From the IMG/VR virus record IMGVR_UViG_3300047409_000500, positions 1 to 51,986 of that record: a DNA stretch of 51,986 nucleotides, one strand, 5' to 3'. The notes below the pieces were generated by a model. It saw only the letters and a program-made list of their open reading frames with translations. It searched no databases and was not told the origin of the DNA. Origin of the DNA: a virus. A program made the translations under genes and the position numbers. Below, piece after piece: positions 400 to 51,518 of the stretch; positions within the stretch are counted from its first letter, which is position 1, and each line of letters begins with the position of its first letter.

Positions 400-747
400 T
401 TACTTGCCCCCCGCGATCTTGTACGTGCGCACGCCTTCAACGCTGGTCGATTCGATTGTGTGGGTCTTGCCCAGGATGCTCATGAATCCCCGCACCGTGT
501 GACGCTGCCATCCGAATCGCGTCATGAGGTCGTCTAGGGCGATTCCCTTTTTCAGTAGTTCGATCGCCTCGCCCTTTTTCGTGGTTCGGGGCGTGGGGGC
601 GGTCGGTGCGGGGGCGGCCTTGGCGGCCTTGGCGGGGGCGGCCTTCGTGGGGGCGGCCTTCGTGGGGGCGGCCTTGGCGGCCTTACCCTTGGGGGCGGCC
701 TTTTTCGTGGCGGCCTTCGGGGCGGTGTTCTTTTTCGTCGATTTCAT
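400..747 (-). CDS. DUF3489 family protein with Ala/Lys/Pro-rich H1-like tail
   Basis: This 115-residue protein has two parts. Residues 1-55 are almost only Lys, Ala, Pro and Thr, in short repeats such as KAAPTKAAPTKAA, like the tail of histone H1. The C-terminal 60 residues carry the small winged-helix-like DUF3489 domain, with a GWQRHTVRG core and a final VEGVRTYKI strand. I chose the ATG at 747 because an AGGA-like site precedes it; the frame upstream lacks coding character. DUF3489 has no settled function. A DNA-binding or nucleoid-like role is inferred from the basic tail and the helix-turn-helix-like core. The gene stands alone, with its own leader at 748-1086. Confidence 0.85.
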   Translation of the reverse strand: MKSTKKNTAPKAATKKAAPKGKAAKAAPTKAAPTKAAPAKAAKAAPAPTAPTPRTTKKGEAIELLKKGIALDDLMTRFGWQRHTVRGFMSILGKTHTIESTSVEGVRTYKIAGGK

Positions 748-2920: not shown

Positions 2921-3183
2921 TAGGCGATCCCTTCCGCCACGGGATAGAAATAGTACTGGCCGTCGTCGAAGTAGAATCCCGCCTCGCCGGGGGTAATCGG
3001 CGCGCTGTATTCCCTGCCGTCATCGCGCAGCAGTTGCGCATTAGGATAGCCGTGCGGGGATTGGAATCGGACGTTCATGATCTTCCCCGCGACCTGCATA
3101 CTCATGCAAACCTCGGACCAGGAGATCTCCATCCGAACCACATCGCCGGGCTGAACGAATTGTCGAATCGCGTAGTTTCGCAT
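2920..3183 (-). CDS. Hypothetical 87-residue protein
   Basis: Beginning at the ATG at 3183, 2 bases after the preceding stop, the protein has a beta-rich middle (FVQPGDVVRMEISWSEVCM, AGKIMNVRF) and an aromatic C-terminus (FYFDDGQYYFYPV). Its stop overlaps the next start. No family recognised. Confidence 0.75.
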   Translation of the reverse strand: MRNYAIRQFVQPGDVVRMEISWSEVCMSMQVAGKIMNVRFQSPHGYPNAQLLRDDGREYSAPITPGEAGFYFDDGQYYFYPVAEGIA

Positions 3184-3185
3184 CG

Positions 3186-3473
3186 CTAGCACCGCCCCGT
3201 TTTCTGCAGCCATTCGGTCGCATCGGTCACGTTCAAATCCATGGAGCAGGGATCGTAGTAATCGGGCGATCCGAATTCGCCATCGCGTTCTTTATAGAGC
3301 GCAAAGTACAGCGGCACCAGCGCGCCACTGTCCGGTCCAAGGCGCATGTAATCCCGCATTAATTCCTTCGCTTCGTCTACGGTGCTAGCTAGCCTATAGG
3401 GCTGATAGTGATAGGTCTCGGGATCGGGCATCCCGAGGCAGCTTTCCGCTTCAATTACAATCAAGTAAGTCAT
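3186..3473 (-). CDS. Hypothetical 95-residue protein, first gene of accessory operon
   Basis: The protein begins MTYLIVIEAESC and contains a predicted helix, VDEAKELMRDYMRLGPDSG, and a YKERDGEFGSPDYYDP loop. An AAAGG site lies 9 bases before the ATG. It is the promoter-proximal gene of the leftward unit that ends at the terminator at 1087. Function unknown. Confidence 0.78.
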   Translation of the reverse strand: MTYLIVIEAESCLGMPDPETYHYQPYRLASTVDEAKELMRDYMRLGPDSGALVPLYFALYKERDGEFGSPDYYDPCSMDLNVTDATEWLQKTGRC

Positions 3474-3810
3474 CGTCTAAACCTTTCGTTTTCAATCAGT
3501 TGGGTTACAACCAGGACCAGCCTAACTCGATGCTCGTATGAATCGCAAGTACCATTTTTGATATGTGGCGGTCCCAGGCGCGGTGCATCGCGCGCCGCAT
3601 CGCCTCCCTGCCACAGCCACCTGGGACGCTGTGTAGGCGGATTTCTCCTCGCCAGGGGGGCGGCGATGCGAACCGCACCAGGAGCCGCCCGGCGGTGTGC
3701 GTAGGGGCGGGGCGGCGCGGGGATCATCGCCCGTACTCGGATACCACCCCTCGCCTTCTAAAAAAACCGCATCCCTCGGGGCCGCCGTTTCCGAATACAA
3801 TAGGAAAAAC
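3474..3810. promoter_or_regulatory. Divergent regulatory gap with 24-bp repeat, copy 2 (3729-3752)
   Basis: This 337-bp gap separates the leftward accessory operon from the rightward gene at 3811. It holds the second copy of the 24-bp repeat, an 8-bp inverted repeat GTCCCAGG/CCTGGGAC with arms about 40 bases apart, and very GC-rich sequence. A TACAAT at 3796-3801 lies only 9 bases before the rightward ATG. I found no convincing -35/-10 pair for either direction. Confidence 0.5.
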
Positions 3811-4143
3811 ATGCAAGTACGAAAAACCAAACCGAACCACGGCGGGGGCCGCCCGCCGATGATGTTCAAGTGCAAGCTCTGCGGGGCGAAGCTCAACAAA
3901 ACGGAGATGCGGTTGCACGAGCCCGGCTGCCGCCGCGCGACGTTGCTGCACGTGGGCGCGCGCTTCACTGTGATGCTCAACGATAGGCAGGTCCCGGTGA
4001 TCATTGAGGAATTCCTGACGGACGAGGGCGAGGCCATGCGCTGCCGCAATCTGATTAGTGGCCGGCGGATTCGAGTCACATCGCCGCGGCGGTTTCGGGA
4101 ATGGATGGAAAGCGCCAACGTGCGCTTCGTGCGGGCCGGGTAA
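3811..4143 (+). CDS. C2HC zinc-finger protein, unknown function
   Basis: The 110-residue product has a single zinc site, C-x2-C-x11-H-x3-C, near residues 20-40 (FKCKLCGAKL ... LHEPGC). A beta-rich segment follows (VGARFTVMLNDRQVPVIIEEFL), then a basic C-terminus (SGRRIRVTSPRRFREW). The start at 3811 follows AGGAAAAAC. It is one of only four rightward genes and shares a unit with the membrane protein 15 bases downstream. A nucleic-acid-binding role is plausible but unproven. Confidence 0.75.
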   Translation: MQVRKTKPNHGGGRPPMMFKCKLCGAKLNKTEMRLHEPGCRRATLLHVGARFTVMLNDRQVPVIIEEFLTDEGEAMRCRNLISGRRIRVTSPRRFREWMESANVRFVRAG

Positions 4144-4158
4144 GAGAGGAAAAAAACG

Positions 4159-4530
4159 ATGACGAATAAGACGGGTAAAGTATCGACGGGCGCTGGCTGC
4201 GGAATCCTGCTGCTGTGCTGCGTTGGGATCTTGGTAGTGCTGTGGATTGGGACTGAGGTAAGGTCTGGCCTAAGCCGCCCCAGTCCCGAGGAAGTGAAGC
4301 GGCAAATCGCTATTGAGGTTTGCAGCGGCCTGCTTGTTCAAGAACACATGCCGGGCCTAAAAGGGGTCGAGGGGCGAAGACCCCGCGCGGAGACGTTGGC
4401 GACCGTGGCGAAGCAGGGCGACACCTATACCGTGAGTTGGGGAATCGGGGATGCATGGTGCAAAGTCAATCTCGTCACCACCGATGGCGGGGTCAAGAGC
4501 GGCAATCCCGATGTTTCCTGGCGTCACTAA
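4159..4530 (+). CDS. Small single-pass membrane protein
   Basis: Residues 12-31 (AGCGILLLCCVGILVVLWIG) form one clear transmembrane segment after a short basic N-terminus. About 90 residues follow and would lie outside the membrane if N-in. They contain two Cys (VCSGLL, AWCKVNL) that could form a disulfide. GAGAGGAAAAAAACG precedes the ATG. The last codons overlap the end of the convergent fibre gene by 4 bases. It could be a lysis, exclusion or surface protein; nothing in the sequence decides. Confidence 0.72.
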   Translation: MTNKTGKVSTGAGCGILLLCCVGILVVLWIGTEVRSGLSRPSPEEVKRQIAIEVCSGLLVQEHMPGLKGVEGRRPRAETLATVAKQGDTYTVSWGIGDAWCKVNLVTTDGGVKSGNPDVSWRH

Positions 4531-5678
4531 ACTTCCATTACCTTGAGGCGGGACTGGACCAGCCTGCCATTGGCCCGCTTCCCCTCGATCACAATTTCGT
4601 TCGTGGCCTCATCGAAGCGGGCCAGGGCCATGGGCACGCCGCCGACCATATAAGCGCCCGTCACGTTGCAATCGCCATCGACGTCCAGCTTGTGAGCGGG
4701 CGGGTTCTCGCCGAGGCTCAGGCTCCACACCATCCGCACGTAGGATTGCTCGCCGCTCATCAGAATGCCTACCGACCAATCGTTAGTGCGCAGCGAAACC
4801 AGATCGCCATCCTGGTGAATCAAGACCCACTCGTAAGGGACCGTCCCGTTCTTGTCGGGGAAGGTCACGTTGCCTGTAGACAGAGCGCCCGAAGGTTGAA
4901 TTCGGACGGCGCTTGCGCTATTCAAGGCGAAGCCAGCGGCATCGACGTCGCCCGTCCAGGGAGTTTGGCTCCCGCCGCCGCCACCCCCGCTGATCGGGGC
5001 ACCGTTGACGAAGTATTGGCCTGTGATGTTTACGTCGCCCTGCACGACGACCGCATAGGGACCTGCGCCGGGTCTGCTGGTTTGATTTCCAAAGAAGTGG
5101 GCGTTCATCGCAAATGAGATTCCACCCCCGCCCGTCCAATCCACTTCCATCAGCGTAAAACCCGAGGCTGCGAGTTGCCATCGACCGGAGAAGCATTGAC
5201 CGAAGAAGTTTGTGCCGCCGGGAAAATTAGCGCCATCCGACCAACGAATCGTACTCACATAATTCAGGGCGTGATTTGCCGCGTCGATATCCGAGGTCCA
5301 CGGAGTCTGCGAGGTGTCGGCGGCCCGGGTGTCCTTCAGCGTGGTTTCGATCACGATGCCCACATCGCGCAACTGATCCGTCAACACGGGGATTGAAGCG
5401 CCGCTCGGCCACAGGATGGCGTTGCTTTTCATCTTCCCGGTGGTATACACCAGACAGGACACGGCCCCAAACGTGGCATCGGCATCCTCGCCTACGATCC
5501 CGTTCGGTGCGGTCGCGCCCGAGGTGATCTCTCCGGTTCCTGGATCGATATGGACTACCGCGCCGCGCTGGTACGCGCCGGATGAGAGCGTGCCCTGCAC
5601 ACTGATTACACTGGACCCATCCACCAGGAGCGAATCCTGATCGGAATCGCCTTCGGTCAGAAAACCCGCGACGGGCAT
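4527..5678 (-). CDS. gpD-like capsid decoration domain fused to fibre repeats
   Basis: The 383-residue protein is a chimera. Residues 1-115 match the phage's own decoration protein (43324-44223): HIDPGTGEIT against KIDPATGAIT, YTTGKMKSNAILWP against YVSGKMKADAIIWP, and DQLRDVGIVIE against DALRDFGILIE. Residues 123-383 are fibre-like, with two SQTPWTxDxDAA modules (123 and 237) and NITGxYxVNGxP motifs shared with the tail fibre at 24656. It would form a head fibre anchored by a gpD fold. The start at 5678 has a strong AAGGAGAAACGCTT site. It ends the early operon, and a possible own promoter lies at 5699-5726 (TTGGGA, 16 bp, CACAAT). Confidence 0.85.
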   Translation of the reverse strand: MPVAGFLTEGDSDQDSLLVDGSSVISVQGTLSSGAYQRGAVVHIDPGTGEITSGATAPNGIVGEDADATFGAVSCLVYTTGKMKSNAILWPSGASIPVLTDQLRDVGIVIETTLKDTRAADTSQTPWTSDIDAANHALNYVSTIRWSDGANFPGGTNFFGQCFSGRWQLAASGFTLMEVDWTGGGGISFAMNAHFFGNQTSRPGAGPYAVVVQGDVNITGQYFVNGAPISGGGGGGSQTPWTGDVDAAGFALNSASAVRIQPSGALSTGNVTFPDKNGTVPYEWVLIHQDGDLVSLRTNDWSVGILMSGEQSYVRMVWSLSLGENPPAHKLDVDGDCNVTGAYMVGGVPMALARFDEATNEIVIEGKRANGRLVQSRLKVMEV

Positions 5679-5726
5679 AAGCGTTTCTCCTTCAGCCAAT
5701 TGTGCCCCAGTTTGTTTAAATCCCAA

Positions 5727-5978
5727 TCATAATTTGATTTGGATGGGAAGCACCATACCGCCGGGGTCGGTGCCGAAGCGGAAGAAGCGCTGGTTTGGGT
5801 CGGGCTCGTCGAGAAACTCGATTTCGATTACATGCAGGCGATGGGCAACCATGGCGGTCGCGTGTTTGGTGGCGAGGGCGGGCAGGAGGTTCTCGAGCCC
5901 GGCCTCGTCCAGATCAATGCGATCCTCAAACAGCATCTTTCCGGCCGCAAAGCCCCGGATGGCGATGCGTTGCTTCAC
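5727..5978 (-). CDS. Hypothetical 83-residue protein, GTG start
   Basis: The GTG at 5978 overlaps the previous stop (GTGA). The protein begins VKQRIAIRGFAAGKMLFEDR and has a helix with a HATAMVAHRLHVIEIEFLDE run. It ends in beta strands (GGMVLPIQIKL). It resembles small phage proteins of unknown role; I recognise no catalytic motif. Confidence 0.72.
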   Translation of the reverse strand: MKQRIAIRGFAAGKMLFEDRIDLDEAGLENLLPALATKHATAMVAHRLHVIEIEFLDEPDPNQRFFRFGTDPGGMVLPIQIKL

Positions 5979-6313
5979 GGCTTTGGCTTGCGCCTCCGCT
6001 TGGGCCTGGGGATCTCGGGGAACTCCGCGACGGCCAGCGGATGCGAACCGCACACCGGAGCCAGCGGCGGGTGGATCTTGCCAGACCAATTGCGCTCCAG
6101 GATGAAGCTCTTTGCGGTGGCCACGTTGTAGGCTTTGAACGAAACCACCTGGGTCCAGTGATGTTTGCTGCGTCTGCCGCACTCGGCGCAGGGTACGGCC
6201 CGGTTGAAGCGCAGGAAGCGGACAAGCTCTCGCTGCCATTCCTCGAATAGCGGATTCGGCCTTGCCTCCAGGATCGTCACCTGAAGAACCTTGTGGAAGT
6301 CGATGCCCTTCAC
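5975..6313 (-). CDS. Hypothetical protein with Cys/His cluster, GTG start
   Basis: The 112-residue product starts at a GTG (6313) overlapping the prior stop as GTGA and preceded by GGAGGCCAGCC. A metal-binding motif is likely at VPCAECGRRSKHHWTQVV, with a CAPVCGSH-like second half at PVCGSHP. The C-terminus is very basic (RPKRRRKPKP). The Cys-x2-Cys plus His-His arrangement is reminiscent of HNH or zinc-finger proteins, but the catalytic HNH residues are not evident. A nucleic-acid-binding role is inferred. Confidence 0.72.
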   Translation of the reverse strand: MKGIDFHKVLQVTILEARPNPLFEEWQRELVRFLRFNRAVPCAECGRRSKHHWTQVVSFKAYNVATAKSFILERNWSGKIHPPLAPVCGSHPLAVAEFPEIPRPKRRRKPKP

Positions 6314-6603
6314 GGCTGGCCTCCGCACAACAGACAAGCCGGATCCTTGCCCTCGCACCAGGGGCACGGTTCCGATGCCTCCAGCAGCGGCACGAGCAAG
6401 CTCGGCGAACCGCCCACCTCCAGATAGACGAATCGCCTCTCCGTGGAAATCCGCGACGAGACGATCTGTACGCCCTCGCGGGTTCCGTAGATGTAGCCCG
6501 CGGTTACGCCGTCGCGCAGCACCTCGATGATGGTTTCGCTGCTCCGTGCCGGGTCGATGTGTCGGGCCTCGCGCAAGCGCAGCACCGAACGTTCTGGAAT
6601 CAC
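6310..6603 (-). CDS. Hypothetical protein with C-terminal zinc motif, GTG start
   Basis: This is a 97-residue protein. The first 75 residues are mixed alpha/beta (SETIIEVLRDGVTAGYIYG). The end, CPWCEGKDPACLLCGG, has a CxxCxG repeat like the DnaJ zinc domain. The GTG start overlaps the previous stop and follows AAGGAGGAATC. Function unknown. Confidence 0.72.
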   Translation of the reverse strand: MIPERSVLRLREARHIDPARSSETIIEVLRDGVTAGYIYGTREGVQIVSSRISTERRFVYLEVGGSPSLLVPLLEASEPCPWCEGKDPACLLCGGQP

Positions 6604-24080: not shown

Positions 24081-24353
24081 ATGGGACGGGATGTAGATCG
24101 CACGATGGTCAGGAAGGCGTACGGAATGGCAGTACGGGGGTTGCGTGCCAGAATCGGTTTGGCGCAGGAAACACTAGCGCTTGAAGCGGGCGTGGATCGC
24201 GCCTACATGAGCGGGCTGGAACGGGGCAAGCACACCCCCACGCTGGAGACGGTGCTGCGCTTCCTGCCGTTGCTGCAGGTATCGTTCCCCGACTTCGCCA
24301 TCGAGTTCGACAAGTGCCTCCGCCGGGCGCGGCGCGAAGCCAAGAAGCTATAG
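24081..24353 (+). CDS. Cro/CI-type helix-turn-helix repressor
   Basis: The 90-residue protein has one HTH_3 domain: LRARIGLAQETLALEAGVDR, AYMSGLERGKHTPTLETVLR, FLPLLQVSFPDF, ending in a short basic tail. There is no C-terminal cleavage domain, so it is either a small CI-like repressor or a Cro. I use the ATG at 24081; ATGs at 24105 and 24126 also fit, and 24126 has the better AGGAAGG site. It is convergent with the late operon, overlapping the last late gene by 6 bases. Confidence 0.85.
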   Translation: MGRDVDRTMVRKAYGMAVRGLRARIGLAQETLALEAGVDRAYMSGLERGKHTPTLETVLRFLPLLQVSFPDFAIEFDKCLRRARREAKKL

Positions 24354-24641
24354 CATCTTGTTGACGACGGCCTCCACGGATCCTTGCAACGCCGGGTCCA
24401 GGATCGCCGCGCCATCGGTTTGCACCGCGGCGTCCATCACGACGGGCGGCTGCAGCTTCATCGCTTCCGCCTCGGGATTCTGGAAGGTCTGGTTGGCCCA
24501 CTTCTCTCTGGTGTTGTGGGCGGGCGTGTTCGTGGGTTCACCCAGGATGGAGTCCGCGTATTTGAGCGCGGCCACCTTGACCCTGCCCCGGAAGGCAAAG
24601 TCGGTCATCAGTGCTGCGCTTTCGTCGTAGGTGAGTGGCAT
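24348..24641 (-). CDS. Small conserved protein at the end of the late operon
   Basis: The 97-residue protein begins MPLTYDESAALMTDFAFRGR and continues VKVAALKYADSI, AHNTREKWANQTFQNPEAEA and LQPPVVMDAAVQ. I recall this layout at the 3' end of tail modules in other phages, where it may be a small virion or chaperone protein. The start at 24641 lies within 15 bases of the fibre gene's stop. No clear function. Confidence 0.8.
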   Translation of the reverse strand: MPLTYDESAALMTDFAFRGRVKVAALKYADSILGEPTNTPAHNTREKWANQTFQNPEAEAMKLQPPVVMDAAVQTDGAAILDPALQGSVEAVVNKML

Positions 24642-24655
24642 AATCATTCTTCCTT

Positions 24656-26812
24656 TCAAAACCATTCAATCCAAGATGCAAACGATCCAGATGTGGTGAC
24701 CTTATACCAGTTTCCCGGCAATACAAAAAACGATAATGCTGCTCCTAAAGTACCTGCCGAAGCGAAGGTAGAAGCGACTGCCGTAGTTGGAGGATTGGCG
24801 GCGTCCGTATATGCGGTAGGGGTCTGGCCCGCAGTTACGCTTGCACAAACCGTGACGAACATTGCTTTGCCAGTGTCGTTTTGGTAAGGAGTGCCCGACA
24901 CTCTAGACCCTGTGACCACACGTTGAGTCGCTATGCCCCCTCCAATCGGCGTCCCATTCACCTTGTAAGCGCCCGTGATATTCAGGTCACCGTTGCTGGA
25001 GAATCGCGCCGATTCCGTGAGAGCACCGTCAGTCGGCGCTTTTCGCGTGTGGATGGTGACATCCCCCTGCGTGTTATTCGCGCCGTTTGTTGCCCATCCT
25101 TTGATGGCAGCAAATCTCCACGCGCCCCCCGCTGCGGAGAACATCACCATACCGCCGTTTCCGCCAGCTGCTCCGGTGTCGCACAGATCAATCGTAGCCG
25201 CCTGGCTATTCCCGGTAATGATGGAACCAGTGTTCCCGGCCCCCTGCACGGATAGCTGGTGGGTTGGGCTTACGCCTAAGCCGACCCTGCCAGCTTGAAC
25301 GATCATAGTGTTGGCCGCTGCCCCGGCGGCGATTACACGGAAAACCTGCGATGCTCCGCTATACACGCCGAGAGCATAATCCCCGCTCACGACTGACATT
25401 TCGATGGAGGAAGCCGGACCCGAACCCAACTCAAAATAAGCACCCTGGCCCGCCCCGGCCTCCAGCCACATTTGCGCGTTTCCTGTCGATGCGACGTGTA
25501 ACTGGGAAGTCGAAATCGGTGCTGTAGTGCCAATACCGACCGAACCGTTAGCCATGAACGTGGCAACCATCTTGCCGCCGACCGCACTATAAATGTTGAA
25601 GTCCGTTCCCCCGGTGGCAGTGATGAGATCGGTTCCCAACGACCATGTATCGTTACCGTACTTCGTGCCGAAAAAGCGCAGTTGAACGTGATTGGACGCA
25701 GAGTCAATGCCGCGAAGACGCAGCGCCTGGAACGAAGCACTTGCGATCTCCAGCGCATAGGTTCCCGCGCCCATTCCGATGGAGACTGGTCCCTCTCTTG
25801 AAGGATTCAGTAGCAGCGGATTTCCCGATAGCAATAGTTGAGTGAGTGCCCCCGCCGAACGGTTGTACGCCTGGATGTATCCGTTGTTGGCGCTGGCAAA
25901 CAATTCTATCCCCGCGCCCGATGTCGGCGCGTTCGCCGTCCCGGTGGATCGGATAAAACCGCTCGTGTTCAGCGCGCCCGCATTGTTGAGCATGAAGCCC
26001 GCCGCATCGATATCGCTGGTCCACGGCGTCTGCGATCCCCCGCCAGAGCCTCCGCTCGGTGTCGCCCAGATCCCATCGCCGCGCAGGTAAACGGTCGCTC
26101 CAGGTGTACCTGTGGCTAATCGGGCGGGCGCAATCACACCGGAGACGATAGCTGCTGCATCGTGAGTGTGGGCACTCGGCGGAAATGTTGCTGGCACCCC
26201 GGTGAGTTTTGCCCAGCCCAGGCTGGTGATCCAAACCGGATCGGCATAGCTTCCGCTGGTCGAAACCGCATTGGTCACTTGCGCGGCGCTATAATCCCCC
26301 GCCGTCGCCACCACCGCCCCGCTGCGCCCAAAGACGCTGGCGACCGCGCCTGCGCCGGGGATGACGACATTGGTAATCGTCTGGCCGCCGCCGTCGATGG
26401 GGCCTGTCCACTTCTGCGCCCCCATCGTGATGAGCCCGGTCGCCCGGTTGACCGCCAGCGGCGTGCCTAGCAAATTCCCGGCATCATCGTAGCGGCGCAG
26501 CGCGAAGTTGGATCCGGCATTCGCCCCGCCCTCGGCGGTGCCGTCCTTGGTAAGCGCCCATCGCAATAGCGCCGTGGGGCCGCTGCCGGATCGCAGTTCG
26601 AGGCGGCTCTCGCTATCCGGTCCCTGCGTGATGTTGACGGGCGACAACGTGTTCGTAAAGCCGCCCGAGCCATCGAGGATCACGTTCGATAAACGGTAGC
26701 CCCCGCCGTTCACGTCGCCGCCCCAGGCGCGGTCGTCGTTCGCCAGCGAGTTGAGCATATCGTTGAAGAGCTTGTCCGAGCGGGCGAGATCGTTGCGCGA
26801 GAGCCATGCCAT
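24656..26812 (-). CDS. Tail fibre
   Basis: The 718-residue protein begins with a short helix that would fit a trimer base (ARSDKLFNDMLNSLANDDRA). Gly/Ser-rich beta segments follow, with modules VFGRSGAVVATAGDYSAAQV, SAHTHDAAAIVSGVIAPARL, SQTPWTSDIDAAGFMLN and repeated DLNITGAYKVNGTPI-like units. The last part (FFVLPGNWYKVTTSGSFASW) is a likely receptor-binding tip. No S74 chaperone domain is apparent. It shares the SQTPWT and NITG modules with the capsid fibre at 4527. Confidence 0.88.
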   Translation of the reverse strand: MAWLSRNDLARSDKLFNDMLNSLANDDRAWGGDVNGGGYRLSNVILDGSGGFTNTLSPVNITQGPDSESRLELRSGSGPTALLRWALTKDGTAEGGANAGSNFALRRYDDAGNLLGTPLAVNRATGLITMGAQKWTGPIDGGGQTITNVVIPGAGAVASVFGRSGAVVATAGDYSAAQVTNAVSTSGSYADPVWITSLGWAKLTGVPATFPPSAHTHDAAAIVSGVIAPARLATGTPGATVYLRGDGIWATPSGGSGGGSQTPWTSDIDAAGFMLNNAGALNTSGFIRSTGTANAPTSGAGIELFASANNGYIQAYNRSAGALTQLLLSGNPLLLNPSREGPVSIGMGAGTYALEIASASFQALRLRGIDSASNHVQLRFFGTKYGNDTWSLGTDLITATGGTDFNIYSAVGGKMVATFMANGSVGIGTTAPISTSQLHVASTGNAQMWLEAGAGQGAYFELGSGPASSIEMSVVSGDYALGVYSGASQVFRVIAAGAAANTMIVQAGRVGLGVSPTHQLSVQGAGNTGSIITGNSQAATIDLCDTGAAGGNGGMVMFSAAGGAWRFAAIKGWATNGANNTQGDVTIHTRKAPTDGALTESARFSSNGDLNITGAYKVNGTPIGGGIATQRVVTGSRVSGTPYQNDTGKAMFVTVCASVTAGQTPTAYTDAANPPTTAVASTFASAGTLGAALSFFVLPGNWYKVTTSGSFASWIEWF

Positions 26813-41780: not shown

Positions 41781-42223
41781 TATTGAAAGCCCTCGGTTCG
41801 GTCCTGCAGGATCACGTTGCAGCAGTCATAGGCGAACGCATCCACGTTCACCACGTCGTATTCAATCCCGTCCTTGACCACGACATCGCCCTTGGCGGGC
41901 GGGCGCGGCAGATCGAAATTGCGGACCAGCGCGTGCGAATAGCGGCCCGGCGATACCTGCTCGTCGGCGGCCCCTTCCTTCCAGATCAGCAGTAGCGGCT
42001 GGCTGGTCGAAGAATCGTCATCGAGCCAGTAGTCCACGGTGCGCCCGAACACGCGCACCAGGGAATCCCAAAGCATCGGGATGTGAAGGCTGAGAAACGG
42101 ATTCACATAGGCCGCATCCTCCCGCAGCGCGCGCCCGGTATGAGATTGGCGAGTCACACCACCGGACGCAGCGCGCGGGGATCGACCTGCGCGCGCCTTC
42201 ACGCGATCAGGTAATTGGTTCAT
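41780..42223 (-). CDS. Head-tail connector-like protein
   Basis: The 147-residue protein, MNQLPDRVKARAGRSPRAAS at its start, has a basic, low-complexity first 40 residues, then PMLWDSLVRVFGRTVDYWLD and ends in a beta-rich part (IEYDVVNVDAFAYDCCNVIL). Its position directly after the major capsid gene suggests a connector or stopper. Coupled to the capsid gene by ATGA. Confidence 0.72.
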   Translation of the reverse strand: MNQLPDRVKARAGRSPRAASGGVTRQSHTGRALREDAAYVNPFLSLHIPMLWDSLVRVFGRTVDYWLDDDSSTSQPLLLIWKEGAADEQVSPGRYSHALVRNFDLPRPPAKGDVVVKDGIEYDVVNVDAFAYDCCNVILQDRTEGFQ

Positions 42224-43242
42224 ACCACCTTGGCTTTGAAGGAGGCGTTGGGCCGATACGGAACCACCAGCGGGGCGCTCTGCATCAGCAGGAAGCGCAC
42301 GCTCGGGTCCTGTTCCACCCAGGATTTGACGAAGTACGGCAGTGGCTGCAGCCCGGCCCCCTCGTCGCGGATCGCGCCGTAGGCGCGCACGCCCTCCAGC
42401 GCGGGCGAGGCGAGGATCGCCGTACCCGCTGGCAGAATCGGCTTCTCTACGCCATCGGCGGGATCGACGTACCAGCCCGAGTAAACGTAGATGTTAAAGC
42501 CGTCCACGTTGCCCATAAAAATCCCGCCTTCCTCGATCTGCGCGGGCTGCCCCATGGTGGGCAGCGATTGGGAGACGCGCTGCAGGTTGAGGCGGTCCTT
42601 AATCTGGCCGTTGCTGCGAAACACCTTCCAGGCGTCGACCGTCATGATCACGTCGGTGAGCATCGCGCCCGTCTGCTGCAGCGCCATCTGGGACCAGTCC
42701 TGCAGATCATCGAGCGGCAGCGACGTTGGATCGCTCCACAGTTTGGAGGCCACGATGGTGTTTCCGGCCGCGCGGCCAAAATCCAGCACCACGGTCGGGT
42801 ACTTGTCTCCCGAGATGGTCGATTTGCCCGTGGCCAGGACCTCGCCCGCCATGACTTCCATGCGGCGGTCGATCATCGCGACCTGATCCTGCATATCGCG
42901 CGCCACCAGCGCCCGCTGGCGATCCGCCGGGGCCAGGGTGCCGCCGATCTGTTCGCCCGGGCCGCGTTTCAGCGGGCGGTTCATGTCGAAGACGCGCTTG
43001 TCCTTGACGTAGGCGGGCTTCAGGGTCGCTGTTTTGAAGCCCAACGAAGCCACGATTTGACCCTCGACCAACGGCGAAACGAACGGCGCGATGCGCCGCT
43101 TGCCATCGAGGGTATCGAAGTGAATTTCCTCCGAGACTTCCGTTTGAATCGTGGGGAAGTAACGGTCGAGCAAGAATTGCGATTGGCCAAGCAGGCTGGC
43201 GACTACCGCATTCAAGACATCGGTCGAAAAAAGATCAGCCAT
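42220..43242 (-). CDS. Major capsid protein (lambda gpE family)
   Basis: The 340-residue protein (MADLFSTDVLNAVVASLLGQ) matches the Phage_cap_E layout: SEEIHFDTLDGKRRIAPFVS, EGQIVASLGFKTATLKPAYV, DKRVFDMNRPLKRG, VDAWKVFRSNGQ, FIVYSGWYVDP-like GFNIYVYSGWYVD, and a basic SFKAKVV end. It forms the HK97-fold shell that the gpD-like proteins decorate. It follows the decoration gene as in lambda D-E. Confidence 0.93.
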   Translation of the reverse strand: MADLFSTDVLNAVVASLLGQSQFLLDRYFPTIQTEVSEEIHFDTLDGKRRIAPFVSPLVEGQIVASLGFKTATLKPAYVKDKRVFDMNRPLKRGPGEQIGGTLAPADRQRALVARDMQDQVAMIDRRMEVMAGEVLATGKSTISGDKYPTVVLDFGRAAGNTIVASKLWSDPTSLPLDDLQDWSQMALQQTGAMLTDVIMTVDAWKVFRSNGQIKDRLNLQRVSQSLPTMGQPAQIEEGGIFMGNVDGFNIYVYSGWYVDPADGVEKPILPAGTAILASPALEGVRAYGAIRDEGAGLQPLPYFVKSWVEQDPSVRFLLMQSAPLVVPYRPNASFKAKVV

Positions 43243-43323: not shown

Positions 43324-44223
43324 TTACTCGGATTTCTTGCTGCGGGTCGCGCCAGGGGCGCTCTGGTCCACCTTGAACGTCTTGCCGTTGATGTAGAAGT
43401 TCGCCGAACGGGCCGCGCCCGTGTTGGCTGCCGCCGTGTAATTCACGCTGCCGCTGGCCGATTGCGGCCCGGCGGGCGTGAAGGTGAGCCACGACGCCGT
43501 TGCATCCTTGTCGACCGTCCAGGTGCCGCTTGCCCCCGGCCCGGTCATCGTGACCTGAATGCTGCCGGAACCGCCCTCGGCAGGAACCGTGCCGCTGGTG
43601 GGCGAGATGGTTACGGGAGGTACATCCGGCATCCCGGCGACCAGATCGTGCGCCGTCGGCACTTCCGCCAGTTCGGGATTCTTCTCGCGCTCCTCGGCGG
43701 TCAGGTAGGCGTAGGGGCTGTCGATGCTTTCCGGCAGTTCCGGTGCCGCCAGCCCCTTGGCCGCTCCCCCCTCGCGGTTGTATTCCACGACATTCTGCGC
43801 GGCTTGCGCTTCCTGGGCGAGAGGCCCGGATTTCACCAGCGTTCCATCGGTGTAGACCACGCTCTCGATCAGGATGCCGAAATCGCGCAGGGCGTCCGAT
43901 ACCACGCCATGGCCGAGGGCGGCGGGCCAGATGATGGCGTCGGCCTTCATCTTGCCGCTGACATAGACCAGGGCCGCCGCAGCCGCGCTGGTGGCGTCGA
44001 TGTCGTTGACCATCACGGCGTTGCAATCTGCCGCCGCCGCAGGCGCCGTAATCGCCCCGGTGGCGGGGTCGATCTTTACGATGGTGCCGCGCTTGATCAC
44101 GCCGCCGCCCGAGGCGACGGTGCCGCTGCGGCTTACGACGCCCTGGCCATCGCTCAAAAGCGGCGAATAGCCAAACGGCGTCGAGGAAAAACTGGCTCGG
44201 GCAATGGGATTCGATGTTGCCAT
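43324..44223 (-). CDS. Head decoration protein (gpD-like) with C-terminal BACON-like domain
   Basis: Residues 1-135 are a lambda gpD-type decoration domain (KRGTIVKIDPATGAITA; LVYVSGKMKADAIIWP; DALRDFGILIE). Residues 140-200 are a linker. Residues 204-287 form a BACON/Ig-like domain: TISPTSGTVPAEGGSGSIQV, TWTVDKDATASWLTF, VNYTAAANTGAARSANFYIN, FKVDQ. BACON domains are thought to bind glycans or mucin-like material. The phage head would thus display about one such domain per capsid subunit. A second gpD-like protein with another C-terminal domain lies at 4527-5678. Confidence 0.9.
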   Translation of the reverse strand: MATSNPIARASFSSTPFGYSPLLSDGQGVVSRSGTVASGGGVIKRGTIVKIDPATGAITAPAAAADCNAVMVNDIDATSAAAAALVYVSGKMKADAIIWPAALGHGVVSDALRDFGILIESVVYTDGTLVKSGPLAQEAQAAQNVVEYNREGGAAKGLAAPELPESIDSPYAYLTAEEREKNPELAEVPTAHDLVAGMPDVPPVTISPTSGTVPAEGGSGSIQVTMTGPGASGTWTVDKDATASWLTFTPAGPQSASGSVNYTAAANTGAARSANFYINGKTFKVDQSAPGATRSKKSE

Positions 44224-47531: not shown

Positions 47532-49462
47532 TCCGGGATCTCCCTGGCCCGAATCGGGCGGAATTGCGGTACGGGGGTGGCGGTAATCGACGGTTTGGCC
47601 GCCGAGGCGGGCTCGGGCCGCTCGATGGTGAGATTGGCTTCCATCTCGTCCCACCGGGCCGCGCTCCAGGACTCAAATCGCAGGCTGGCCGCCGCCGCCC
47701 GGGCATAGATGCGGCAATCGAGCGCCTCGTTGCGGTCGCGGCGCTTCTCCCACACGGTACGGCGCAGGCCGCCCTTGCTGGTGCGCGTCACCAGCTGCTC
47801 GGCGGTCAGCTGCTCGAAGTATTCCTTCGAATATTGCGGGAAGTGGCAGAATCCGGTCGGCCAGGGCTCCCCGGCCTCGCGGTCGGGCATTGAGCACCGC
47901 AGCCAGCGGTAAAGCTCCTCTTTGGCGATGGAGCTATTGATGGGCCACAGGCGGATGCCGTATTTCACCCGGCCATGTGGCCCCACCTCAATCAGCGAGG
48001 GCGCGCCGATCAGCGACGAGACACGACTATCGCCCTTGACCGCCATGACCCGCTGAGGAGACATACGGCGTACGAAATCGTAGACTGCCGTGGTGTTGAA
48101 ACCGGAATCAATCGCCATCTTGGTGATGCGGGTGCGCCCGCCGTAAGCGGTGTCAAAATCCTCATCGAGCAGCTTGACCAGCTGGTCCCAGACGGCGGGC
48201 TGCGTGGTGTCGCCTTCGAACACCCGGTAATCGATGCTCCACGAGAGCCGCTGGCGGCCCCAGGCGACGATCTCCACCTCCAGGCGCTTCAACTGCACGT
48301 CCACCCCGGCGGTGAGCAGCAGGCCGCCGTGGGGGATTTTACCGATGTCGTAGATTTCGCGGCGCTCGTAGAGGCGGTCGGTGTCGGGTACCTCGCCGAT
48401 GTCGGTCCACGGCTGGCCGAGCACGGTGTTCTGAAAGACTTGCAGCTTCTCCCGGTCGGTCCCGGCATCTTCGTACTGCTTGGCGATCTGGCCCCAGGAA
48501 AGCCACCCCACCGGGGAATAGAGGCTCGAGAGGTGGTAGCCGTGGATCCGGTCGTCTCCGGTAATCTGCTGCGGCTGCCAGACGCCCTGCTCCAGCATCC
48601 GTTTTTTGGCGTGATTGGGAATCGATCGCCCGCAGCCTTCGCACATGTAGTGGGCCGCGTCGGGATTCTGCTTCGGCCAGCGAAGCTGCTCGAAGCGCAG
48701 CACTTGACTCAACGCGCAGAACGGGCACGGCACCCAAAACTGGCGCATATCGCTGTCGTTGTAGAAGCGCTCGATGCGGCTTTTGCCGCTGAGTACCGGG
48801 GTGGACACGATGAAGATTTTGCGGCGCTGCGAATAGTTCGAAGTACGCGCGATGGCCAGATCACAGGGCTCCCCTTCCCCGTCCACATCGCCCGGGTAGC
48901 CGTCGACCTCGTCCAGAAACAGATACCGGGCCGACATCGAGCGCAGCCCCTTGGCGCTGTTGGCCCCCGTCATCACCAGGATGCCGCCGGGGTATTCCTT
49001 CGCCAGCACCGTGTTGCCGCTGTCGCGCGACCGCGCCTCCCGCACGAGGCCGCGCAACACCTCCGATTCTTCGATCAACGGCCCGATGCGCTGCTTCGAA
49101 TTGCGCTTCGCCATATCGGTCGTGGGCTGGACCGCCATCATGGGCCCTGGAGCCATGTGAATCGTGAAGCCGATCCAGTTGTTGCCGCACTCGGTGCCGC
49201 CGATCTGGCTGCCCTTCATGAAAATCACCGTGTGGCACTTCGAGCGCGGCGACAGATCGTCCATGATGTCTTTCAGGAACGGGGTCCGCGCGGTGCGCCA
49301 CTGCCCGGGCTCGGGCGAGGACCGCGATGTCAGGAAGCGATGCTTATCCGCCCATTCGGAGATGGTGAGATCGGGATCCGGCCTCGCCCCGGCCCTGGCG
49401 GCGCGTCGGTAGATCGTGGCGGCCGACAGGGTCGAGGGCTCCGTGGTGAGGAAATCGTTCAT
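47528..49462 (-). CDS. Terminase large subunit (lambda gpA-like)
   Basis: The 644-residue protein begins MNDFLTTEPSTLSAATIYRR. It has a variant Walker A (MKGSQIGGTECGN, residues 82-94), a Walker B with catalytic Glu (YLFLDEVDGY, 180-189), a CPFC ... MCEGCG zinc pair and a nuclease region (TAGVDVQLKRLEVEIVAWG; KMAIDSGFNTTAVYDF). It translocates DNA into the prohead and cuts it. A gpA/Nu1 pair suggests a cos-type packaging system. I could not locate cos. Confidence 0.93.
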   Translation of the reverse strand: MNDFLTTEPSTLSAATIYRRAARAGARPDPDLTISEWADKHRFLTSRSSPEPGQWRTARTPFLKDIMDDLSPRSKCHTVIFMKGSQIGGTECGNNWIGFTIHMAPGPMMAVQPTTDMAKRNSKQRIGPLIEESEVLRGLVREARSRDSGNTVLAKEYPGGILVMTGANSAKGLRSMSARYLFLDEVDGYPGDVDGEGEPCDLAIARTSNYSQRRKIFIVSTPVLSGKSRIERFYNDSDMRQFWVPCPFCALSQVLRFEQLRWPKQNPDAAHYMCEGCGRSIPNHAKKRMLEQGVWQPQQITGDDRIHGYHLSSLYSPVGWLSWGQIAKQYEDAGTDREKLQVFQNTVLGQPWTDIGEVPDTDRLYERREIYDIGKIPHGGLLLTAGVDVQLKRLEVEIVAWGRQRLSWSIDYRVFEGDTTQPAVWDQLVKLLDEDFDTAYGGRTRITKMAIDSGFNTTAVYDFVRRMSPQRVMAVKGDSRVSSLIGAPSLIEVGPHGRVKYGIRLWPINSSIAKEELYRWLRCSMPDREAGEPWPTGFCHFPQYSKEYFEQLTAEQLVTRTSKGGLRRTVWEKRRDRNEALDCRIYARAAAASLRFESWSAARWDEMEANLTIERPEPASAAKPSITATPVPQFRPIRAREIPE

Positions 49463-50076
49463 GCCGCCGCACCTTCCCGGGGGCTCGATTCGCGGTTGGC
49501 GAACTCTTCGAAGGCCCGGCGAAGCTCGACCATCAGGGTTTCGTAGACCACGGTGGCATCGGTCTCGGCGGCGATCTGCGCGCTCACCCGGTCGGGAATG
49601 TTGAAGCACGCATCGCGCAGGATGCGGAAGGCGTTGAAGGCTTCCAACTCCACCGATTTACGCGAAACCAGGTTGCCCAGGCGCTCTTCGTAATCGAGCT
49701 TCTTGATGCGCGCCTCGTAGATTTCCTTGGCGGCGCGCGCCTTATTGAAATCCGGCCCGGTGGCGAGGCGCTCTCCGCTGCCAAGCTCGGCGGCGTCCTG
49801 CTCGGCGTGGCGGATGGCATGGGTCGCGGCCCGGTGGCGGCCCGCCTGGACGTGCCCCGTGGCCGCCGGGGGATCCGCGCGGGGCTTCTTCGGTACGCCC
49901 AACTGGTCGACCCGGGCGTTCGAGTGCATCGTGTTCTGTTCCCACTCGCGGTCGGCCTGCTCGGTGTCGATCAAACCATCCACGCGGCGGGTGATGCGGC
50001 CCCGCTTCACGGCGTACTGCACTGCCGTGAGGCTGACGCCGCGATGGCGGGCGTATTCGGTGATTCCTAACAACAT
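49459..50076 (-). CDS. Terminase small subunit (Nu1-like)
   Basis: The 205-residue protein starts with a winged helix: GITEYARHRGVSLTAVQYAV, KRGRITRRVDGLIDTEQADR. The middle is disordered and basic; the C-terminal part is helical (AKEIYEARIKKLDYEERLGN). This layout is typical of small terminases that bind cos and recruit the large subunit, which is encoded next with an ATGA overlap. The start is the ATG at 50076; 53 bases separate it from the methyltransferase stop. Confidence 0.88.
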   Translation of the reverse strand: MLLGITEYARHRGVSLTAVQYAVKRGRITRRVDGLIDTEQADREWEQNTMHSNARVDQLGVPKKPRADPPAATGHVQAGRHRAATHAIRHAEQDAAELGSGERLATGPDFNKARAAKEIYEARIKKLDYEERLGNLVSRKSVELEAFNAFRILRDACFNIPDRVSAQIAAETDATVVYETLMVELRRAFEEFANRESSPREGAAA

Positions 50077-50129
50077 GCCCTTCGCCTAATCCTTCCCGGG
50101 TGATACAATCTGCATCAACGGGTTGTACT

Positions 50130-51518
50130 TTAGGCAGACGGCTTCTGTTCCACGGGTTGCTCTGCCGGGTTCGCAGTCTTGGCCGCTGATCGCACAGCGG
50201 CCTTCTCTTTTTCCAGAATCAATCTCTCTCGCTCCACCTGGAGGTAGTTCGCCCCGGTGGCCGCCAGGATCGGCTGGCGCTTGGTGTAGTTGCGCCAGCG
50301 CTTCAGAATCACATCGCAATAGACCGGGGCAATCTCAATCAGCCGGGCCTTCCGGCCCAGGCGCTCCGCGGCGATTAGCGTTGACCCACTTCCCCCGAAG
50401 AAATCAATCACCAAATCGCCGCGGCGCGTGGAATTCATCAGCGCCCGCTCCAGAAGCTCGACGGGTTTCATCGTCGGGTGCTCCCGGTTGGCCTGGGGCT
50501 TCTTCTCGGCCCAGATGGTGGATTGCGTGTTGTCGCCGTACCAGAGGTCGACGTCGCCCTTGCGGTGGCAGTAAACAATCGTCTCGTGCTGTTGCTTATA
50601 GCGGTTGAACGTCATCACGAAGTGATTCTTCGCCCAGACGATGTGGCAGCGGATTACGAACCCGGCCCCTTCCAGCGCGCACTCGAAGGCCGTATGGCGC
50701 ATCAGCGCCAGGAAGCAGTACATCGACCCGCCGGGCTTCAGGCAATCGGCGTAAACCCGCATCGTCGCGTCGATGAAGTCCTGGAAGTCCTCGGGCGAGG
50801 CGTCATCCTGCTCGATTTGGTCGTGGAGCTTCTCCCGCTTGCCGTTGACCCGCGATTCGCGCCGCGACCGGGCGCTGTGGTGGTAATCGACGTTGTAGGG
50901 CGGGTCGGTCAGCACCAGCTGCGCCTTCTCGCCCTCCATCACGGCGTCGACGGTCGCCGGATCCAAACAGTCGCCGCAGACCAGCCGATGATTCCCCAGG
51001 AGCCAGAGGTCGCCCGGGCGCGACACCACATCTTCCGCGGTTGCCGGCGCTTCATCGGCGTCGGTGTCGCCCTCAATCGGATCGCCCGAAGCTTCGAGTA
51101 GCTCTTCCAGTTCCTTTTCAGTGAATCCCGTTACGGTGACATCGAAGTCATCGGCCAGGAGTTCCTTCAACTCTTCCCGCAGGAGCTTCTCATCCCACCC
51201 GGCGTTTTCGGCCAGCTTGTTGTCGGCGATGATGTAGGCGCGCTTTTCGGCGTCCGACAAGTGCCCCAACGGGATCACCGGGGCTTCCGGCATCCCGAGC
51301 TTGTAGGCGGCCCGCAGCCGGGCGTGGCCCGCCAGGATATCCCCGTTAGCCTCGTCCACCAGGATGGGCTGTGTGAAGCCGAATTTGATAATCGAGGCGG
51401 CGATCTGGTCGATCTGTTCGTCGGTGTGTGTCCGGCTGTTTTTGGCGTAGGGCATCAAGCGCCCGAGCGGCCACATTTCCACACGATTTGCCATCGCCGG
51501 AATCAAGAAGTTAGACAT
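50130..51518 (-). CDS. ParB-like domain fused to a beta-class DNA methyltransferase
   Basis: Residues 10-100 are a ParB/Srx-type domain (PLGRLMPYAKNSRTHTDEQI, ILAGHARLRAAYKLGMPEAP, GHLSDAEKRAYIIADNKLAE). Residues 175-440 are a DNA methylase with DPPY (205-208) before FFGGSGST (373-380), the beta-class order, and NREHPTMKPVELLERAL between. DPPY suggests adenine-N6 methylation. Such fusions are common beside phage terminases and may protect or mark phage DNA; the ParB part may hydrolyse or bind nucleotides. The ATG at 51518 lacks a Shine-Dalgarno site; a second ATG (51494) is also possible. Confidence 0.92.
   Translation of the reverse strand: MSNFLIPAMANRVEMWPLGRLMPYAKNSRTHTDEQIDQIAASIIKFGFTQPILVDEANGDILAGHARLRAAYKLGMPEAPVIPLGHLSDAEKRAYIIADNKLAENAGWDEKLLREELKELLADDFDVTVTGFTEKELEELLEASGDPIEGDTDADEAPATAEDVVSRPGDLWLLGNHRLVCGDCLDPATVDAVMEGEKAQLVLTDPPYNVDYHHSARSRRESRVNGKREKLHDQIEQDDASPEDFQDFIDATMRVYADCLKPGGSMYCFLALMRHTAFECALEGAGFVIRCHIVWAKNHFVMTFNRYKQQHETIVYCHRKGDVDLWYGDNTQSTIWAEKKPQANREHPTMKPVELLERALMNSTRRGDLVIDFFGGSGSTLIAAERLGRKARLIEIAPVYCDVILKRWRNYTKRQPILAATGANYLQVERERLILEKEKAAVRSAAKTANPAEQPVEQKPSA

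Follow-up and report, generated by a model that had tools for sequence, protein, structure and literature searches.

Head fibres and decoration proteins are both known from phages, and gpD is a standard scaffold for engineered display. The locus studied here raises the question of why a phage with an ordinary gpD should carry, outside its head genes, a second gpD-like protein fused to fibre modules, and where such a protein would act. The window, i.e. the whole stretch of DNA analysed (51,986 nt, IMG/VR record IMGVR_UViG_3300047409_000500), belongs to a temperate, lambda-like siphovirus. GpA-type terminase, lambda-type portal, S49-type protease, gpD and capsid protein E were recognized, together with tape measure, integrase and a RecE-like gene, and a RecT-like match was weak. 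The features of the locus were as follows.

4527-5678, minus strand: accessory decoration-fibre protein P0001, 383 aa (intact open reading frame, coding score, family and structure matches)
5687-5691, minus strand: Shine-Dalgarno sequence AGGAG, 8 nt 5' of the P0001 ATG (sequence reading)
5328-5678, minus strand: gpD-fold capsid-binding domain, residues 1-117 (phrog_49 profile, identity to head-cluster gpDs, Foldseek)
4623-5315, minus strand: fibre shaft, residues 122-352, two SQTPWTxDxDAA ... NxTGxYxVxGxP modules (tblastn to fibres of relatives, match to own fibre)
4530-4622, minus strand: C-terminal 31 residues of P0001, beta strands, mean pLDDT about 80 (structure prediction)
4528-5727, no strand: segment of the window that G001, a relative, lacks (comparison with G001)

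The P0001 frame starts with ATG and runs through 383 intact codons, and its codon usage indicated strong coding potential. The ribosome site claimed in a preliminary description of this DNA was present, with AGGAG 8 nt ahead of the ATG. The possible promoter placed there at 5699-5726 was not recovered, as no sigma-70-like promoter, the only type searched for, was found within 3000-6500. A terminator 3' of P0001 was not found either, thus the own promoter and terminator of moron genes were not seen at this gene. No match to P0001 was obtained by tblastn in annotated phages and plasmids or by sequence in the PDB, and a local search with residues 340-383 gave no convincing relatives (best E 0.07).

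The N-terminal domain was assigned by profile, identity and predicted fold, and its counterparts in the head cluster were located.

43324-44223, minus strand: ordinary head-cluster gpD P0002 with C-terminal BACON domain at about 43363-43512 (Pfam HDPD 4.8e-7, BACON 1e-6, phrog_49 1.2e-13)
42220-43242, minus strand: major capsid protein (MCP), the presumed docking surface (Pfam Phage_cap_E 2.2e-72); the only relatives of it found in the genome collection were 44-45% identical

Residues 13-117 of P0001 matched the PHROG head decoration family phrog_49 in a profile search (E 1.8e-9), and the match to Pfam HDPD, at 0.0028, was under Pfam's cut-off. BLASTP against P0002 gave 41% identity over 128 aa (1e-18), and the domain was 27-44% identical to 36 aligned head-cluster gpDs from this phage and its relatives. 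When the profile of that alignment was compared with the PDB, the first six matches were lambda gpD and phage 21 SHP, at E values of about 0.07-0.1 only. AlphaFold predicted residues 20-110 with pLDDT >94, and the first 13 PDB matches of the domain model in Foldseek were all capsid or decoration entries (SHP, lambda gpD, YSD1, Sf14, Bas63), with TM scores by target length of 0.68-0.72 and probability 1.00 for SHP 1td0/1td3 and lambda gpD 8xqb. In 30 head gpDs, 24 positions show conservation of 90% or more; P0001 kept 18 of these, A4 and F6 of the N-terminal arm among them, and divergent head gpDs were similar in this respect (15/24 to 17/21). The arm was about 8 residues shorter than that of P0002, so docking could be weaker. 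The preliminary description had proposed gpD homology in residues 1-115, naming a profile search as the result that could overturn it, and an alignment with the phage's own decoration protein; the homology proved far above chance, and the alignment stood.

Beyond the domain, the shaft matched the fibre P0004 of the same phage (33.7 bits, E 4.4e-10), so that the SQTPWTxDxDAA and NITGxYxVNG modules are indeed common to both proteins.

24656-26812, minus strand: fibre P0004 in tail-fibre position, with QTPWT and NITGxYxVNG modules (match to P0001 shaft)

The matches to fibres of relatives were stronger than that to P0004, with 37% identity and E 1.9e-19 for P0005 and E 1.6e-12 for P0006 (tblastn). 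Monomer models of the C-terminal part were of low confidence, and a fold search with it gave no significant match. The joint between gpD domain and fibre lies at the place where head gpDs bear their own variable C-terminal tails or a BACON domain; among relatives these tails ranged from apparently disordered Pro/His-rich stretches to BACON-like domains. A gpD-fold protein fused to fibre modules, in a genome with an ordinary gpD, was thus borne out by profile, predicted fold and shared modules, and P0001 combines, as judged by its sequence, the capsid-binding anchor and elongated fibre part of the head-fibre class. It was the single fibre-type accessory gpD in the data examined. A degenerate DNA pattern for a gpD end followed by QTPWT gave two chance matches in viral contigs, both without gpD. 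A phrog_49 search of 399 Pseudomonadota genomes recovered many gpDs; in some of them Ig-like parts were inserted or stood at the C-terminus, and none of the long ones inspected had a fibre. Large, apparently Ig-like insertions inside the gpD fold rather than at its C-terminus were seen in L128, L129 and L130 (G187, G111 and G131; Pseudomonadota).

QTPWT modules were also detected in the fibre genes L020:471-3101, L048:3753-5807, L013:29-274, L034 (about 3825-4090) and L188:3015-4244 (minus strand). These genes lie between terminase and portal, just after the MCP gene, or near a homologue of the gene at 5727 of the window. Four of the five, for which the N-terminus was available, begin with short QxFxAxL repeats and a collagen stretch, and such fibres may represent another head-fibre class with a small peptide anchor. 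A 97-aa gene of the window (24348-24641) comes after the fibre gene, and so do its homologues in the relatives examined, G012 and G005 included, in which the fibre now lies between terminase and portal; this gene is possibly fibre-linked. In L048, the large terminase P0007 (400-3411) carries an insert of about 300 residues that starts with CFDASTEVLTDEGW and is intein-like in appearance.

The position of P0001 relative to the head genes depends on how the record is read, for which two end features were informative.

400-747, minus strand: DUF3489 gene marking the join of left and right ends (Pfam DUF3489, L015 order)
49459-51518, minus strand: small terminase (49459-50076) and ParB-methyltransferase (50130-51518), joined to the left end on the circular map (L015 gene order)

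Homologues of DUF3489, methyltransferase and small terminase stand in a row in L015, and in G012 and G005 the terminase is preceded upstream by early genes on the same contig; the two ends of the record therefore belong together. If no sequence was lost at the join, the distance from P0001 downstream to the terminase is about 6.4 kb and that to gpD about 13 kb, with all three on the same strand, and the separation of 39 kb from the head genes described earlier is an artefact of the linearized record. P0001 is on the strand of the early genes and directly follows them, and two small plus-strand genes separate it from the next minus-strand block. The slot directly upstream of MCP is held by P0002, not by P0001. 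All head-cluster gpDs examined were located directly before MCP wherever the contig extended that far; this slot is a feature of the usual gpD gene order and not of the fold family.

The site of P0001 was compared with that in close relatives. In G001, about 80% identical to the window, the site is empty and the genes on either side almost touch, ending at 4647 and 4661, and the second close relative L186 also lacks P0001 there. Because of this absence in both relatives, P0001 was regarded as an accessory gene, and it shares with moron genes the presence in one phage and absence from the site in close relatives. None of 32 relative records, many of them fragments, contained two gpD matches (PHROG 49). 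Recent duplication of the phage's own gpD was considered as a source and ruled out, since P0002 shares up to 77% identity with other head gpDs and only 41% with P0001, and the tree placed the two proteins apart. There, the gpD domain of P0001 sat on a long branch and grouped, with weak support, with L021, L038, L057 and L134, i.e. with another gpD lineage than that of P0002; a single clade of P0001 and L134 was neither demonstrated nor rejected (p-AU 0.35).

L134, an 18,575 bp contig (G433), came up in a search for which P0001 and six relatives served as seeds. It encodes a gpD 52% identical to that of P0001 with no MCP nearby, and its synteny with the window begins at the tail-fibre gene and extends over the recombination and replication genes into the early genes, with the gpD in the early region as for P0001. 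The C-terminus of this gpD is a BACON domain (Pfam 6.1e-6) instead of a fibre. The protein shares 67% identity with the head gpD of L021, a contig of the same metagenome; the L134 phage may thus have an accessory as well as a head gpD, the L134 contig stopping short of the head cluster. A BACON-bearing stand-alone gpD in the same region suggests a swappable accessory decoration slot, which may be modular, with a fibre here and BACON in L134. At L134:5134-7082, downstream of this gpD, lie PAPS-reductase-like and glutamine-amidotransferase-like genes, a possible cargo region.

Given the computed homology, predicted fold, fusion and accessory status, we infer that P0001 is likely an accessory head fibre anchored on the capsid, which would be incorporated into virions and share threefold sites with ordinary gpD. 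A place elsewhere on the particle was weighed against this, with the gpD-like domain anchoring an extra tail or neck fibre at the neck, portal vertex or tail. Such a role would fit the shaft modules, which occur in tail-position fibres, and the divergence of the gpD domain; against it, the domain reaches 52% identity to gpDs, the majority of them encoded directly before MCP, and the conserved N-arm positions are kept, and we consider this role improbable. A role outside the virion or early in infection, for example as receptor decoy or in action on the host when P0001 is made early, was proposed because P0001 sits at the end of the early operon. P0001 shares the strand of the early genes directly before it, and the L134 copy is also among early genes; but the families matched by the domain are capsid decoration proteins, and the terminase is only about 6.4 kb downstream on the same strand of the circular map, which leaves such a role very improbable.

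It is also conceivable, though unlikely, that P0001 is a chimeric by-product of illegitimate recombination, with little or no expression and no function. Its absence from the same site in two close relatives, the lack of a promoter match and the long gpD branch would fit a by-product. Such an origin is at odds with an intact frame of 383 codons with a strong coding signature and good ribosome site, with the retention of conserved gpD positions, and with the finding that another phage, too, has a stand-alone gpD in this region. The head fibre, or adhesin on a decoration fold, put forward in the preliminary description thus held as the best reading, but the gpD domain stands at some distance from P0002 and groups weakly with another lineage. 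The further idea of switching capsid coatings by means of two decoration proteins found no support.

As an accessory head fibre, P0001 could work as follows. The gpD-fold domain would form trimers, as expected from established gpD biology. Phage fibre shafts are as a rule trimers, as is gpD, so the symmetries of the two parts match. The trimers would cap the expanded capsid at its threefold or quasi-threefold sites, occupying a fraction of the sites also used by P0002 and competing or mixing with it, and the two-module shaft would be held outside the head. In this arrangement, the constant P0002 would secure the capsid and P0001 would add a few to many fibres, which would probably serve weak reversible adhesion to the host or surroundings; in short, the head of the phage probably bears extra sticky fibres. 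C-terminal fusions to gpD are tolerated by lambda and load on capsids; lambda has also been given two D genes by engineering, the wild-type gpD serving to supplement the fusion, and mixed trimers were considered likely (PMC12656833). Both termini of lambda gpD are on the capsid-facing side (PMC12656833), so the P0001 shaft must thread out via a short linker. A broader and more tentative proposal, to which we give slightly less than even chances, is a display slot in which an independently evolving second gpD outside the head cluster carries interchangeable surface modules and occupies the capsid sites together with the constant gpD, the mixture giving mosaic capsids. It would amount to natural two-gene phage display, with adhesins swapped without touching the essential cement protein.

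No description of a natural second gpD anchoring fibre modules beside an ordinary gpD was found in the open-access literature. If the head-fibre reading is true, phages gain capsid adhesins by gene capture with the capsid cement undisturbed, and P0001 offers a ready-made anchor and a permissive fusion site. Compared with lambda gpD and phage 21 SHP (Pfam HDPD, PHROG 49), P0001 has the same domain by profile and predicted fold, with a trimeric threefold cap expected, but it is not encoded beside MCP, is a second copy in its genome and has a fibre shaft of about 265 residues added to it. Engineered lambda display of the D-bio type likewise uses two D genes, one plain and one with cargo (PMC12656833); here the system is natural, the cargo is a phage fibre shaft and the D domains have diverged (41% identity). 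The head fibres of phi29 (gp8.5) and SPP1 gp12 are trimeric fibres or spikes on the capsid surface with proposed host adhesion, as proposed for P0001, but with unrelated anchors lacking the gpD fold and with helical or collagen-like shafts (PMC7602432). Shigella phage Sf14 has two decoration proteins per capsid, gp33 and gp20, one of them elongated and Ig-bearing, and its capsid chains matched the P0001 gpD-domain model in Foldseek; the Sf14 pair differs in folds and sites (PMC11821841), whereas P0001 and P0002 both have gpD folds and likely share sites. T4 Hoc and T5 pb10 resemble P0001 as capsid-surface proteins with a proposed role in host adhesion, but are monomeric, of Ig type and placed at hexamer centres (PMC7602432). 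Dec is an extra decoration protein in phage L and close relatives that is absent from P22, but unlike P0001 it has an OB fold, is encoded among virion assembly genes and has no fibre (PMC8022706). Capsid fibres of unknown identity are used by phage 7-7-1 on flagella (PMC12796354), and the head fibre of RcGTA is, like P0001, encoded outside the head-tail cluster (PMC11409702).
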